From a virus: a DNA stretch of 40,085 nucleotides. The position numbers were made by a program, and so were the translations under genes. The notes below the pieces were generated by a model that saw only the letters and a program-made list of their open reading frames with translations, was not told the origin of the DNA and searched no databases. The DNA lies in IMG/VR virus record IMGVR_UViG_3300009285_002274, positions 1-40,085 of that record; one strand, written 5' to 3'. Positions 3,327 to 26,173 of this stretch are shown here, one piece after another (position 1 is the first letter of the stretch; each line of letters begins with the position of its first letter).

Positions 3327-3635
3327 ATGGAAAACGAATTAAGTATTGTCATCCTGGCGATCGTGGGTATGGTCTTGCAGTTGGCTTTCAAGTATTTCCC
3401 GAAGCTGGCACCGTGGTATGAGGCGCAGAGCAACAAGGCGCTGATCATGGTCGGCGTGGTCTTGCTGGTGTCGCTGGCGTATTTTGGGCTGGGCTGTGTG
3501 GCTTTGCTGGCTGGACGGCTTGGGATCCAGGTGGCGTGTAATGTCGAAGGATTGATCGATATTGCATCCGCTTTTGTCTTGATCTTGATCAGCCAGCAGA
3601 CGACTTATTTGCTGACACGCAAGTCGAACGGATAG
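3327..3635 (+). CDS. holin-like membrane protein with three predicted spans
   Basis: The 102-residue protein has three hydrophobic segments, at about residues 5-23, 35-60 and 76-96, with a short polar C-terminal tail (TRKSNG). This fits a class I holin topology, which would let the GH25 endolysin reach the cell wall. Start ATG 3327 follows AAGGAG at 3315-3320. No specific holin family motif is recognised, so the call rests on size, topology, and position between the endolysin and the packaging genes. It is followed four bases later by a coiled-coil membrane protein. Confidence 0.6.
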   Translation: MENELSIVILAIVGMVLQLAFKYFPKLAPWYEAQSNKALIMVGVVLLVSLAYFGLGCVALLAGRLGIQVACNVEGLIDIASAFVLILISQQTTYLLTRKSNG

Positions 3636-3639
3636 CAAG

Positions 3640-4041
3640 ATGGGTGCTTCACCCGGCAACAACAACATCCTGCAGGAGAGGTTAAACGCATTGAGCCAGG
3701 CTGTCGCAGAAGGGTTTAGCCGCATTGAAAAATTGCTGGCATCGGTGGATGAGCGGGTGAGGATGCTGGAGACTTCTGCCATGGCAGACCTGGCTGTACA
3801 AAAATCCCGCCTGGATGCAGCCTTTAACCGCATTGATGAGAATAAGTGCTCCATTGAAGATGTGCAGACTGATCTTGATCAATATCCGGAAGCGAAGGAT
3901 GTCAAGAATATGGTGGATGACTATCCCAGGATCAAAGACACGATGGCAGGTGTGCGCTGGCTGGCTTTGACGGTGGCCGGGTTGATCATCACCCTGTTGT
4001 GGGGCATGCTGACCGGCTCGATCAAGATCACCATATTTTAG
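3640..4041 (+). CDS. coiled-coil protein with C-terminal membrane anchor (XhlA-like)
   Basis: A 133-residue protein. Residues about 8-60 have heptad-like spacing (LSQAVAEGFSRIEKLLASVDERVRMLE), a typical coiled coil. Residues about 106-130 form one hydrophobic span (WLALTVAGLIITLLWGML), leaving a very short tail. This layout resembles haemolysin XhlA-type holin accessory proteins, which act with a holin and an endolysin. Start 3640 lies four bases after the holin-like stop, so the pair is probably co-translated. Family placement is structural inference. Confidence 0.55.
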   Translation: MGASPGNNNILQERLNALSQAVAEGFSRIEKLLASVDERVRMLETSAMADLAVQKSRLDAAFNRIDENKCSIEDVQTDLDQYPEAKDVKNMVDDYPRIKDTMAGVRWLALTVAGLIITLLWGMLTGSIKITIF

Positions 4042-21495: not shown

Positions 21496-22803
21496 ATGCT
21501 TCCAGACATGTTACTGATGGGGAGGAAACAATCGCCTATCTACGGTTCATCCTGGGCTGGTGGATCCAGTCCAACCTTGACGCGCACAGACGCGGCGGTT
21601 GGGATGGTGGCGAACGCTGGGGTGGATGCTGGCGTTGTGGTCAATAATTTTGACACAGCCGATATATACCGAGATATTACTGAGGTCACGGATGTACTCG
21701 GGAACGTATTCATCCGCATCCCAAGATTTTGGATCGAGAAGACGGCAGTGGGGGCGGCCAGGACGTGGAGGATTTCATCCAAGCCGTTCGGTAATGCCTA
21801 CCTACCGGCCTGTTTTGCGAACGCGGCATATGTGGACGTGGGTAAATATAATGCCTCGCTGAGTGGCGCAAACAAACTGGAAAGTTTGTCCGGAAAATAT
21901 CCACTGTACAACAAAAACATTGTCGAATTTAGAGGTTATGCACAGGCTAATGGGGCTGGATATTATCAGATGGATATTCACGTGGTGGACATCCTGACTG
22001 TTTTGTTTTACATCGAGTTTGCAACGCTCAATTCGCAGTCAATCATGGCTGGTTTATCTGCTGGAGCGTATGCCGCTGGGCACACGGCAACCGTTGACGA
22101 AAATGCGGTCAATAGAATTATCGTTGCCAACGCCACGGCTGCCCTATTTGTTGTCGGGCAGACGATTGGTGTGGGTACTTCTCTGGGCGGCAATCAGGTG
22201 ATTTCCAATCGCACGGTCACATCCATCGAAGTGTATGATGCATCCAACAAGGCTATAACGGTGGATGGGGCAGCTTTCAATGTTGCAATCGGAAATATCA
22301 TCTATTCGTTGGGCTGGAAATCTGGCTTTAGCTCTTCCATTGTAGCAAAAAGCGGAAGCCCAACACACAACACAAATGGATTGTATCCGTGCATGTATCG
22401 AGGCATTGAGAACCCCTGGGGCTCGGTGTGGCAGTTTATTGACGGTTTGAACATCAATGAAAATCAAGCCTGGGTGTGCCGGACACCAGCGGATTATGCC
22501 AGCAATCTATTTGCAGCTCCTTATGTCCAGTTGAGTTATGTCTGTAAAAATGCGAACGGGTATCCAATCTCAATGGGCCTGGACCCGGCCAATCCGTTTG
22601 CAAACTTACCATCCGAGGTCGGAGGTGGATCAACCACATATTACAGCGATTATTACTATCAAACCACCGGCCAAAGAATTGCCTTGCTTGGCGGGTCTTG
22701 GGTCGACGGGGCGTTTGCCGGGCTCTCGTGCTGGTTCCTGCATTTCGCGTCTTCCGGTGCGAGCATCCGCTTCGGTGGGCGGCTTCTTAAGACCCCTCTT
22801 TAG
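21496..22803 (+). CDS. DGR variable protein: tail receptor-binding protein with C-type-lectin-like C-terminus
   Basis: The 435-residue protein is the target of the retroelement that follows. The start at ATG 21496 has AGGAG at 21483-21487. The N-terminus (MLPDMLLMGRKQSPIYGS...) is structural. From about residue 120 the sequence looks like the formylglycine-generating-enzyme/C-type-lectin fold used by DGR targets (VEFRGYAQANG, then YRGIENPWGSVWQFIDG). The C-terminal LLGGSWVDGAFAGLSCWF...SSGASIRFGGRL is the variable repeat. Every base difference from the template within 22679-22783 is at a template adenine. This changes 18 residues, most of them from Asn codons in the template. Receptor recognition by the tail tip is the likely job. 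Confidence 0.9.
   Translation: MLPDMLLMGRKQSPIYGSSWAGGSSPTLTRTDAAVGMVANAGVDAGVVVNNFDTADIYRDITEVTDVLGNVFIRIPRFWIEKTAVGAARTWRISSKPFGNAYLPACFANAAYVDVGKYNASLSGANKLESLSGKYPLYNKNIVEFRGYAQANGAGYYQMDIHVVDILTVLFYIEFATLNSQSIMAGLSAGAYAAGHTATVDENAVNRIIVANATAALFVVGQTIGVGTSLGGNQVISNRTVTSIEVYDASNKAITVDGAAFNVAIGNIIYSLGWKSGFSSSIVAKSGSPTHNTNGLYPCMYRGIENPWGSVWQFIDGLNINENQAWVCRTPADYASNLFAAPYVQLSYVCKNANGYPISMGLDPANPFANLPSEVGGGSTTYYSDYYYQTTGQRIALLGGSWVDGAFAGLSCWFLHFASSGASIRFGGRLLKTPL
22679..22783 (+). repeat. DGR variable repeat (VR)
   Basis: Aligned without gaps to 22868-22972 at an offset of 189 bases. Within this 105-base segment the copies differ at 26 positions and every one is an A in the template, the hallmark of DGR mutagenesis. 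The first non-adenine difference is C to T at 22784, marking the 3' boundary. The segment encodes the last exposed loop of the lectin-like domain. Confidence 0.93.
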
Positions 22804-22828
22804 GGGGTTTGGGGGTCTCCCCCCAAGA
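22790..22828 (+). other. hairpin/cruciform-forming GC-rich element directly after the VR
   Basis: AGACCCC (22790-22796) pairs with GGGGTCT (22812-22818). Alternatively CCCC (22793-22796) pairs with GGGG (22803-22806), and GGGGG pairs with CCCCC around a TCT loop (22811-22823). In well-studied DGRs a hairpin follows the VR and helps target-primed reverse transcription; the position here fits that role. There is no T run, so it is not a simple terminator. Confidence 0.6.
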
Positions 22829-22867
22829 AACTATTTGAAAGGATTTATAGGGATATGAGGTGTGCGC

Positions 22868-22972
22868 TTGCCTTACTTGACGGGAATTGGAACAACAGGA
22901 CGAATGCCGGGCTCTCGTACTGGAACCTGAATAACACGTCTTCCAATGCGAACATCAACATCGGTGGGCAGA
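22868..22972 (+). repeat. DGR template repeat (TR) within the non-coding RNA region
   Basis: The template lies between the variable gene and the reverse transcriptase. Read in the VR frame it is rich in AAY codons (DGNWNNRTNAGLSYWNLNN...), which let adenine-directed changes sample many residues without making stops. The surrounding segment 22804-23105 (302 bases) has no convincing gene: an open frame at 22855-23037 exists only because the template is kept in frame. The TR RNA is expected to extend from before 22868 towards the RT gene. Confidence 0.93.
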
Positions 22973-23105
22973 CTCTTATTAGAAAAGATTATCAATGCAA
23001 TTGCATCTCATATTCCTCACCACTTGGTGAAAATTAAGCCGCAAAGAGCATGGTTTAGTAGGCGGAAGCTCGAAACCCCATGAGGCTAATAAGAACAAGG
23101 AAAAC

Positions 23106-24158
23106 ATGAAACGAACAGGCTACATCTACGAAAAGATATGTGATCTCGAAAACATCAAAATGGCGATCTTGAAGGCTTCTCACGGCAAGCGCAACAAGAA
23201 ATATGTAGCTCGCATCCTGGGTTCCCTGGATCACTACGCGGCAGAGATCAAGAAGATGCTTGTTGAAAAGAGCTATGTCCCATCACCCTATACGATCAAG
23301 GTGATCCTGGACGGCGCAAACAAGAAAGAGCGAACTATTTATAAGCCACGTTTCTACCCGGATCAGATCATCCACTGGGCGTTGATGCTCCAGATACAAA
23401 ATATTATTTTGCGCGGCATGTACAAATATACCTGCGGCAGTGTGCCTGGCCGGGGCACGAGCTACGGCCAAAAAATCCTGAGACACTGGCTGGATAGTGA
23501 CTACAAGGGCACGAAATATTGTTTGAAGATGGACGTGTCGAAATTCTACCCATCCATTGATACTGAATTATTAAAACTTATGTTCCGTCGCCAGATAAAG
23601 GACCAGGATTGTTTATGGCTGATCGATTCGATCCTGGATAGCAACCAGGATGGTCTTCCGATCGGAAATTACACCAGCCAATGGTTCTCAAATTATTTCC
23701 TACAAGGGCTCGATCATTACATCAAAGAAGATCTGAAGATCAATTATTACATCCGTTATGTGGATGATCTGGTGATCCTGGGTGGAAATAAGAAAACAAT
23801 ACACAAAGCCAGGATAGCAATAGATCAATATTTGAGTTCAATCAACTTGTCTGTCAAACGAAATTGGCAGGTATCGCTTGTATCCACCAGGGCTATTGAT
23901 TTTCTCGGGCTGCGGTTTTTTCGAGATAGAACAATCCTACGAAAAAGAAACGCCTTGCGGATCCGCAGACGCCTGGTAAAGATCCACAAGAAAGATGATC
24001 TGAATTATGTTGATGCCTGCGCAGTTGTGTCTTACTGGGGCTGGATCAAGCGCAGCGATAGTTACAATTTTTATAACAATCATGTTAAGTCAAAAATTAG
24101 TATTCAGACTGCAAAAATGAGGATAAGCCAATATGCCAAACAAGCCTGTAGTGTATGA
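23106..24158 (+). CDS. DGR reverse transcriptase
   Basis: The 350-residue protein copies the TR RNA into adenine-mutated cDNA that replaces the VR. Catalytic motifs are visible: KMDVSKFYPSID at 141-152, GLPIGNYTSQWFSN at 183-196 (the DGR/group II-like motif 4 with SQ) and YVDD at 218-221. The start of the palm region has SVPGRGTSYG at 112-121. There is no maturase or endonuclease domain, and the length is normal for DGR enzymes. It follows TR and VR as in classic phage cassettes. No Avd-type accessory gene was recognised next to it. Confidence 0.95.
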   Translation: MKRTGYIYEKICDLENIKMAILKASHGKRNKKYVARILGSLDHYAAEIKKMLVEKSYVPSPYTIKVILDGANKKERTIYKPRFYPDQIIHWALMLQIQNIILRGMYKYTCGSVPGRGTSYGQKILRHWLDSDYKGTKYCLKMDVSKFYPSIDTELLKLMFRRQIKDQDCLWLIDSILDSNQDGLPIGNYTSQWFSNYFLQGLDHYIKEDLKINYYIRYVDDLVILGGNKKTIHKARIAIDQYLSSINLSVKRNWQVSLVSTRAIDFLGLRFFRDRTILRKRNALRIRRRLVKIHKKDDLNYVDACAVVSYWGWIKRSDSYNFYNNHVKSKISIQTAKMRISQYAKQACSV

Positions 24159-24543
24159 GTCAGTGCCCGAGTTCGGGCAACTGGTTGAATATGTGACAGA
24201 AGCCAACCCGGTGGAGCGCGAAAATGAGATCTATGTTGGCGCTCAGATCCACCCGGTGGTGATCACGCAGCATAACCTTGAGGACGCTCGATCTCTCGAA
24301 GCGATCAAAAACGATTACCTGAAGATCGAGCTTGAATACAAGCGCACTGTTGAACTGCTGCCAGAGAAAGAGTTGGATGAGTTGAAATTAGATTATGCAC
24401 TGGATGCAAAGCTGATTGCGGTACATCCGGTGGATGCGGTTGATGCAATGCTATTGAAGATTAGCGCGGTGAAGGAAGTGCTGCCAATTGATGAGAAATT
24501 ACCGGTCGAGGGAGATATTGACCTGCTTGATCTACCTTTTTAA
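24133..24543 (+). CDS. hypothetical protein downstream of the DGR
   Basis: A 136-residue protein overlapping the RT stop by 26 bases. The middle is acidic and helical (EAIKNDYLKIELEYKRTVELLPEKELDELKLDYALDAKLI). It is not obviously the four-helix, basic Avd accessory protein: composition is acidic and length is slightly long. Its tail (EGDIDLLDLPF) ends just before a terminator. It could be a DGR-linked factor or an unrelated tail gene. Confidence 0.5.
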   Translation: MPNKPVVYESVPEFGQLVEYVTEANPVERENEIYVGAQIHPVVITQHNLEDARSLEAIKNDYLKIELEYKRTVELLPEKELDELKLDYALDAKLIAVHPVDAVDAMLLKISAVKEVLPIDEKLPVEGDIDLLDLPF

Positions 24544-24552
24544 TTAATCAAG

Positions 24553-24580
24553 AAATCCCGATCTAAGAACGGGATTTTTT
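24553..24580 (+). terminator. Rho-independent terminator ending the late operon
   Basis: AAATCCCG (24553-24560) pairs with CGGGATTT (24570-24577) and the T run continues to 24580. It lies between convergent genes: the rightward gene ending at 24543 and the leftward recombinase ending at 24563. Being nearly symmetric it may work in both directions. Confidence 0.8.
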
Positions 24581-26173
24581 GAGAGCAGGGACAGCGAATG
24601 GAAACTGGATGCTGTGCCTATATTGAGGCGGCCCCGACGGGAGACCCGATATAGGCACAGACGGCGGATAAAAGTAGAAGATCACCCCGAACAATTCATT
24701 TCCATCCCGGTCGACGTCGACGTGATCGACATAGCCGCGCAGGATGGTGCGCAATTTTTCAGGATCTCCATCCTGGATGAGCCGCTTGATCTCCAGCACA
24801 TTGGCCTGGAGATCTTTTTCGTTAATCTCCGGGACCGGCTGCAGGGCGGACGTGTTCAATTCGCCCAGGCTAGTCAAAAGCTGCGTTTTGAAGGTCTCGG
24901 ACTCGCTCAGCAGCTCCAGAAGTGCTGTAGAATGGCCGCTGACAGCAATAGCTTTGCTCAGATTACCAATTTCCCGGGAAACTTTGCTTAAACGGCGTTT
25001 GAGTTGACGTTTTTTTTGCTCCTGTTCTGCCAGGCGACCGGACTGCTGAGCGACCAGGGTTATGCGGGCAGCCTCCATGACTTTGAGCTGCAGGATGTGA
25101 TCGGTCAAGGTCGATAGCACGGCATCTTCAAAGATCTGGCGTGGAATGCGGTGACGAACACAATCACGTTTGCGATAGGCACGCGTGCAGAAATAAGAAT
25201 CATACGTGGTGCCGTTGCGCTGATGGGAGCTGTGGCCATACAGTGGAGATCCACACCTGGCGCAGCGTGCCAGTCCGGACAGCAGGAACTTTGAATTTTT
25301 GCGGCGGGGGTGATCCGGAGATCCGGCTCGCACATGGTGATGACCACGGTAATGGCGCTGTTTTTCCTGGACGGCTTCCCAGAGTTGGGTCGGGACGATG
25401 GGCTCGCAGTAATCGTCGATGACCAGCTCACTGAATTCCAGGATGCCGATATACAGTTTGTTGGAGAAAAAGGTGCGATAGGAATTGACGCCGCCGTACA
25501 GGTTCGTCTCGGTCTGGATCTGGCCCAGGGACGCACCACTGGCGCGCATCTCAAAAGCCTTGAGCACCAGGGATGCTGTTTCCGGGTCTGGCACCCAGCG
25601 GTGGGCGACGTGGGCGCTGCCGTTCCGTCTTTGGCCAATCGTGACCGGCTCTCGTTTGAATCCACGCGGCGGGATGCCTGGCACACAGCCATGCGTCTTC
25701 ACCAGGTCACGCAGACCGCGTTTGACATCGATGGACAGGTCGATCAGGTATTGCTCGTCTTTGTAATCGATCAGGGCCTCGAAGATGCGGCCAGCCGGTC
25801 CATCCGGGATCTCGTCGTTGAGCGAGTAGAAGATGTAACCACGGCTGCGGATCTCGGCCCGGTAGAACTGGGCGTTGTCGATGTTGCGGGCGAAGCGGTT
25901 GTATTTCCAGACCACCACGCCGCGCTCGGGGCAGCCGTGGCGGAAGGTGTTCATCAGGCTGTGCAGCTGCTCACGTCCGACCACGGAGCCCCCGCTCTGG
26001 GCCATGTCCTTATAAAAATGGGTGATGACCAGGTTGTTTTCGAGCGCCCACTCACGCAGGGCGTCTTCCTGCTGGGAGACGGAAAGATCCTGCTCCTCGC
26101 CGCCGCTGTCGCGCAGGTAGGCGACGATGGAGGCACCGGGTGGAAATGGAACGGTCACGGTAGACTTTCGCAA
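24563..26173 (-). CDS. large serine recombinase (integrase)
   Basis: The 536-residue protein has the N-terminal resolvase-type catalytic domain: YLRDSGGEEQDLSVSQQ with nucleophile Ser23, followed by the arginine motif YNRFARN. Then come a recombinase domain and a zinc beta-ribbon with CARCGSPLYG...YFCTRAYRKRDC (about 300-345), and a coiled-coil stretch (about 372-420). This is the layout of phage integrases that join attP and attB. The start is TTG at 26173 with AAAGG close by; GTG 26158 is an alternative. It overlaps the DUF4236 gene upstream by 19 bases. A hairpin lies inside the coding end (24612-24660). Confidence 0.9.
   Translation of the reverse strand: MRKSTVTVPFPPGASIVAYLRDSGGEEQDLSVSQQEDALREWALENNLVITHFYKDMAQSGGSVVGREQLHSLMNTFRHGCPERGVVVWKYNRFARNIDNAQFYRAEIRSRGYIFYSLNDEIPDGPAGRIFEALIDYKDEQYLIDLSIDVKRGLRDLVKTHGCVPGIPPRGFKREPVTIGQRRNGSAHVAHRWVPDPETASLVLKAFEMRASGASLGQIQTETNLYGGVNSYRTFFSNKLYIGILEFSELVIDDYCEPIVPTQLWEAVQEKQRHYRGHHHVRAGSPDHPRRKNSKFLLSGLARCARCGSPLYGHSSHQRNGTTYDSYFCTRAYRKRDCVRHRIPRQIFEDAVLSTLTDHILQLKVMEAARITLVAQQSGRLAEQEQKKRQLKRRLSKVSREIGNLSKAIAVSGHSTALLELLSESETFKTQLLTSLGELNTSALQPVPEINEKDLQANVLEIKRLIQDGDPEKLRTILRGYVDHVDVDRDGNELFGVIFYFYPPSVPISGLPSGPPQYRHSIQFPFAVPALKKSRS
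24612..24660 (-). repeat. perfect 12-bp inverted repeat inside the integrase 3' end
   Basis: CTGTGCCTATAT (24612-24623) is perfectly complementary to ATATAGGCACAG (24649-24660). The 25-base loop contains CGGGAGACCCG and other G/C-rich short arms. It encodes residues about 505-521 of the integrase. It could be an inserted palindromic element or a recombinase-binding or regulatory site. Confidence 0.65.

Follow-up and report, generated by a model that had tools for sequence, protein, structure and literature searches.

The 40,085-base virus record analysed here, which we call the window, carries a genuine phage diversity-generating retroelement (DGR) of a known kind. Its parts lie in close order on the plus strand: a target gene for a tail protein (21496–22803) whose 3' part holds the variable repeat (VR, 22679–22783), the template repeat (TR, 22868–22972), an RNA element and a reverse transcriptase gene (RT, 23106–24158). 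We hold with high confidence that a DGR of a temperate tailed phage, in which cDNA synthesis would be primed from an RNA duplex and the cDNA would replace the VR, best explains the element as a whole. The original prediction had placed VR, TR and RT at exactly these coordinates, and its central claim of a DGR aimed at a lectin-like tail protein is borne out by an RT nearest to the Bordetella enzyme bRT, a match to the tail protein family phrog_5302, a fold shared with the variable proteins TaqVP and Mtd, and hypervariation among relatives. Its description of the DGR as complete stands for TR, VR and RT as well as for the spacer RNA, the hairpin and the IMH-like end, and does not extend to an Avd gene, which the window lacks.

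The two repeats align without gaps over 105 nt at an offset of 189, leaving 84 nt between them. A recount agreed that the 26 differences all lie at template adenines (26/26): VR differs from TR at 26 of the 30 TR adenines and at none of the 75 other positions (hypergeometric p = 9e-21), and the bases of VR opposite the 30 adenines are 13 G, 9 T, 4 C and 4 A. The figure of 18 varying residues, said to be mostly Asn, is reached only by counting codon 22783–22785, and 10 of these 18 are Asn in TR. The stop codon of the target at 22801 lies 17 nt beyond the VR end, and there is no second VR in the 40,085-base window. Searching with the RT turned up 67 related loci on viral contigs and a further 24 in genomes of bacteria, almost all of them Bacillota. 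A repeat search tolerant of adenine changes upstream of the RT recovered both repeats from the majority of viral loci that contain that region. Mismatches in these pairs fall nearly all at TR adenines, and the order is conserved: target with VR, short gap, TR, short gap, RNA, RT. As side observations, locus L041 has a distant VR (1099–1208) about 1.4 kb before its TR with only 2 differences, L016 also has a distant VR, and L035 holds two VR-like repeats (3408–3529 and 3594–3711).

Where the diversified part of VR ends deserves closer attention. The boundary had been put at 22784, which is indeed the first non-adenine mismatch on the 3' side (C in TR, T in VR); diversification at an adenine is last clearly seen at 22771, and the changes at 22781 and 22783 are fixed ones rather than the result of hypermutation, so that 24 mismatches at 28 adenines are left as diversified sites once these two are removed. 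VR and TR have TCTTA in common and then diverge in an IMH-like end (22780–22789; CGGCTTCTTA in VR, CAGACTCTTA in TR). Every relative with the TR end CAGAC-TCTTATTA has CGGCT in VR against CAGAC in TR, with a small indel just past CGGCT in the VR of L009; all of them have A>G at 22781 and A>C at 22783, and the C-to-T change at 22784 is conserved together with these. Because the two adenines always become G and then C, which is nonrandom, and because C-to-T is no adenine change, we regard 22780–22784 as fixed differences. Judged from the sequence, they mark an IMH/IMH*-like boundary as in Bordetella phage BPP-1, and the diversified part stops before it. It is unlikely, if far from implausible, that protein selection for an Arg-Leu-Leu end, and not a cDNA-replacement boundary, fixed 22781 and 22783: relatives conserve the residues GGRLLK at the end of VR, as such selection would have it, but the C-to-T change at 22784, conserved alongside, cannot be made by adenine mutagenesis. 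Protein selection and a cDNA-replacement boundary may also both act on the VR end, and selection on the conserved protein C-terminus may thus contribute to its fixation.

Just past the stop codon of the target lies a G/C-rich hairpin or cruciform (TTGGGGG-TCTC-CCCCCAA, 22809–22826). Of 51 distinct loci, 41 have a hairpin of comparable strength at the corresponding position, as against 2.6% of shuffled sequences. Efficient homing in BPP-1 requires a hairpin of such kind (Guo et al. 2011, PMC3240598). Its loop follows the consensus GRNA (PMC3240598), which the minus-strand loop GAGA fits here, while some relatives do not.

The RT open reading frame (350 aa) matches PF00078 (E 4.9e-11) and phrog_1423 (E 2.7e-101), and contains both motifs expected of it, KMDVSKFYPSID and YVDD, as well as the DGR-type IGNYTSQ. 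An IGxxxSQ-type motif is usual in DGR RTs, and QGxxxSP is usual in other RTs; among the family RTs the former occurs in 79 of 89 and the latter in 0 of 89. The best solved relative is 8ub7 (E 4.2e-28), labelled in its structure record simply as 'Reverse transcriptase', which we take to be the BPP-1 bRT, and other bacterial RTs follow far behind (E 5e-10 and weaker). Assignment of the RT to a retron, a group II intron or an antiviral DRT was rejected, as NCBIfam scores fall far under the cut-offs and the TR/VR pair decides the matter.

The target (435 aa; best start ATG at 21496, stop 22801–22803) matches the PHROG tail protein family phrog_5302 (E 1.5e-51). An AlphaFold2 model that drew on 32 targets of the family (pLDDT 85.8 on average, dropping to 62–71 around the VR segment) agrees with the predicted C-type-lectin-like fold of its C-terminal variable domain: it matches TaqVP, the Thermus aquaticus DGR variable protein (5vf4; Z 23.6 over 268 residues, Foldseek E 1.3e-7), which at 18% identity is the closest solved fold, and Mtd, the BPP-1 major tropism determinant (1yu3; Z 9.3 over 167 residues), and it also resembles predicted phage tail collar fibres. 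Unlike the rest of the comparison with TaqVP, a domain inserted at residues 190–275 of the target (~22063–22320) has other relatives; this beta domain resembles pb9, the distal tail protein of phage T5, and a domain of a K1 capsule lyase, with Z reaching 9.6. A modular swap can be seen elsewhere in the family, where L003 (1992–3701) and L023 (1856–3676) join differing N-terminal virion domains (Phage_tail_2; BppU_N) to the common variable domain. The changed residues sit on the lectin-like domain of the target, a tail protein that probably binds the host surface, and their variation would, by analogy, allow receptor switching. Of the original wording 'tail-tip', the 'tail' part stands with the phrog_5302 match, whereas a position at the tip and a change of receptor specificity draw on gene order and homology.

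The RNA RT-18 (Rfam RF03021, 23018–23096), a putative DGR spacer (Sp) RNA, occupies the interval from TR to RT; it scores 66.9 bits against a gathering score of 41.3 and covers the full length of the model (1–84). A scan of 63 related loci from viruses and bacteria placed RT-18 just before the RT in 62, the exception being L065, and Lactobacillus phage LBR48 also carries it before its RT. In a reverse search of about 400 sampled genomes the RNA model found few matches, and those beyond the RT search (L098, L100 and L101) are again next to a DGR-type RT, upstream of which lies a TR-like stretch rich in Asn codons. RT-18 stays under its gathering score in BPP-1, Butyrivibrio phage Arawn, Psychrobacillus phage Perkons and crAssphage LMMB, and is therefore not universal among DGRs; the RTs of the last three are more distant from that of the window, and the BPP-1 spacer, in the same place between TR and RT, is Rfam RF03022 (Phage_DGR). 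As RT-17 (RF03020) weakly matches the RT-18 location, the two are probably related; the RT-n motifs reportedly come from Weinberg et al. 2017. We found no stated role for RT-18 in Rfam, and an earlier printed link to DGRs is possible. Very probably, RT-18 is the RNA that starts the rewriting, i.e., the DGR spacer.

This reading draws on a predicted priming duplex. Its 5' arm, TCTTATTAG (22974–22982), begins one base 3' of TR, and its 3' arm, CTAATAAGA (23086–23094), is the tail of the RT-18 RNA; the two are perfect complements over nine bases, and the duplex lies within the minimum free energy fold. The Rfam model stops at the tail and leaves it unpaired, since the partner arm at the TR 3' end lies outside the model. 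Across relatives the arms change together, with TTTAATCTT/AAGATTAAA in L051, TTTGTTGC/GCAACAAA in L063, TCTTTTAC/GTAAAAGA in L087, TTATCGTC/GACGATAA in L088, TTCTTATGG/CCATAAGAA in L048, and further loci likewise. Because RNAalifold on the raw MAFFT alignment, where the tail arm is misaligned, missed the duplex, we turned to swap tests, in which the best helix score of each locus with its own tail was compared with that obtained with swapped tails. Among 42 types the own tail scored 17.8 versus 13.5 (sd 0.41), and among 16 representatives with less than 60% RT identity it scored 18.2 versus 14.2 (sd 0.56), with 0 of 20,000 permutations reaching the observed value. Covariation across the swap tests reaches z 7.1–10.5, a quantity that shared ancestry can inflate, but the effect holds after the strict thinning to 16 loci. 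In folding energy the TR end with the spacer RNA does not fall below its shuffled versions (z −0.41), so that energy alone is no evidence here.

The analogous pairing in BPP-1 joins ATCACCT of TR with AGGTGGT of Sp, and ends two bases before adenine A56, the primer of the cDNA. By this analogy, 22974–22982 and 23086–23094 likely form the cDNA-priming duplex, and synthesis should start at a base just past 23094, with TR copied from about 22970–22973. Spacer-primed synthesis from an internal adenine is summarised in a 2026 paper (PMC12875486). It is very unlikely that RT-18 is instead a cis-regulator of RT translation, in which pairing with the TR end would hide or expose the RT ribosome-binding site. 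One duplex arm does lie close to the RT gene, 11 nt before its start codon, and borders on a purine-rich ribosome-binding region, but anywhere from 3 to 25 nt may separate duplex and start codon, the partner arm sits at the TR 3' end in an IMH*-like position, and the Phage_DGR spacer at the same place in BPP-1 is reported to prime cDNA (PMC12875486).

With RT-18 read as the spacer, the following course of events may be proposed. A transcript containing TR and the RT-18 spacer RNA would be bound by the RT; the TR 3' end (22974–22982) would pair with the RT-18 tail (23086–23094), and a nucleotide of the spacer, located immediately 3' of the paired arms, would prime cDNA into TR, starting near 22970–22973. 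The RT would misincorporate opposite adenines, and the mutagenised cDNA would replace the VR of the tail gene, guided by the IMH-like end (22780–22789) and the hairpin (22809–22826). TR and VR would differ exactly at the TR end because pairing with the spacer is required of TR and has to be avoided by VR: by retaining its spacer-pairing 3' end TR would remain the donor, and VR, having no such end, the recipient.

Evidence that DGRs of this family are at work comes from pairwise comparison of near-identical relatives from different samples. In L003 and L004 the VR differs at 20 of 26 TR-adenine sites, with 0 differences at about 2,950 aligned positions elsewhere (76 in VR, 102 in TR, 1500 upstream, 217 intervening and 1051 in the RT). 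Similarly, L009 and L043 differ at 18 of 26 VR adenine sites versus 1 of 75 other VR sites, with 0 differences in TR, RT and upstream sequence, and further pairs differ at 19 of 26 adenine sites versus 0 of 88 others (L031/L084), 15 of 28 versus 0 of 83 (L040/L075) and 16 of 32 versus 0 of 82 (L067/L090). TR is identical between close relatives with differing VRs. The variation among these relatives is therefore neither missing from TR-adenine sites nor spread evenly over the gene, and the family is active in nature, as hypervariation in close relatives is confined to TR adenines. Activity in the phage of the window can only be deduced from these relatives, since neither an exact pattern search nor blastn found a second genome of it. 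That its DGR is a former one, now inactive, whose VR records past diversification, is highly improbable: the near-identical relatives L028/L029 and L033/L034 do share the same VR, but all parts are intact here (an open RT with YVDD, spacer RNA, duplex and hairpin), and the full-length repeats, with 26 of 30 adenines changed and 0 of 75 other positions mismatched, bear no sign of decay elsewhere in VR. A separate observation concerns L058 and L083: these two, in contrast to the remaining pairs, differ within the TR itself, at 19 of its 28 adenines, as if a diversified copy had overwritten the TR of L083.

One point against the overall reading is the lack of Avd, which is essential in BPP-1. The Avd model (NF033474), which scores 106.8 bits on BPP-1 as a positive control, has no match in the window, in 19 related viral records, or in phages LBR48, Arawn and Perkons; Avd-like matches do occur in some bacterial genomes, but elsewhere, on contigs untied to the cassettes of this family. 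According to a review, the majority of DGRs, though not all, encode Avd (PMC10053308), which is therefore no strictly defining part of a DGR. The ORFs past the RT in relatives belong to unrelated families, and the ORF that overlaps the RT end in the window (24133–24543) was rejected as a DGR accessory, with relatives in some loci only, unrelated ORFs in others, and no match in phage records. As far as gene content tells, the cassette is without Avd or any other conserved accessory gene, and its RT would function without Avd. With slightly less than an even chance of being right, we suggest that these elements form a two-component DGR lineage of phages and prophages, mainly of Bacillota, in which an RT and an RT-18 spacer that primes cDNA suffice without Avd or a substitute protein.

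The closest parallels are the DGRs of BPP-1 (mtd-avd-TR-brt) and LBR48. With BPP-1 the window shares TR/VR differences restricted to adenines, a homologous RT, a lectin-fold tail target and a hairpin past VR; in both, the repeats have IMH/IMH*-like ends, and a spacer RNA located ahead of the RT can base-pair with the 3' end of the TR that precedes it. Unlike BPP-1, the window has no Avd, a VR–TR gap of only 84 nt, and RT-18 in place of Phage_DGR as spacer. LBR48 has the closest RT of a named phage (53.8% aa identity), RT-18 just before it and a similar target fragment, whereas its downstream gene is unrelated and target and TR are unannotated in its record. That deposited record (L093, 1–822) annotates the RT, without TR, RT-18 RNA or the preceding target fragment.

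DGRs are the main known route to targeted protein diversity in phages, and it is from a single element, that of BPP-1, that their mechanism is understood in detail. What the analysis adds is that an Rfam RNA without an assigned role can be read as a DGR spacer, with covariation backing the candidate priming duplex. The family serves as an evolutionary test of the BPP-1 mechanism: pairing of the BPP-1 type between spacer and TR covaries in RT-18 even where the RTs have diverged strongly, an argument for spacer priming as a general feature of DGRs. Furthermore, the start of cDNA synthesis is predicted to within a few bases, and with its compact, Avd-less cassette the element could reveal if DGRs can dispense with Avd.

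As for the phage itself, the target gene sits after the tape-measure and other tail genes, and directly past the DGR region lies a large serine-type integrase on the minus strand (24563–26173; phrog_95, E 2.3e-66). Given these tail genes and the integrase, the phage is tailed and probably temperate.
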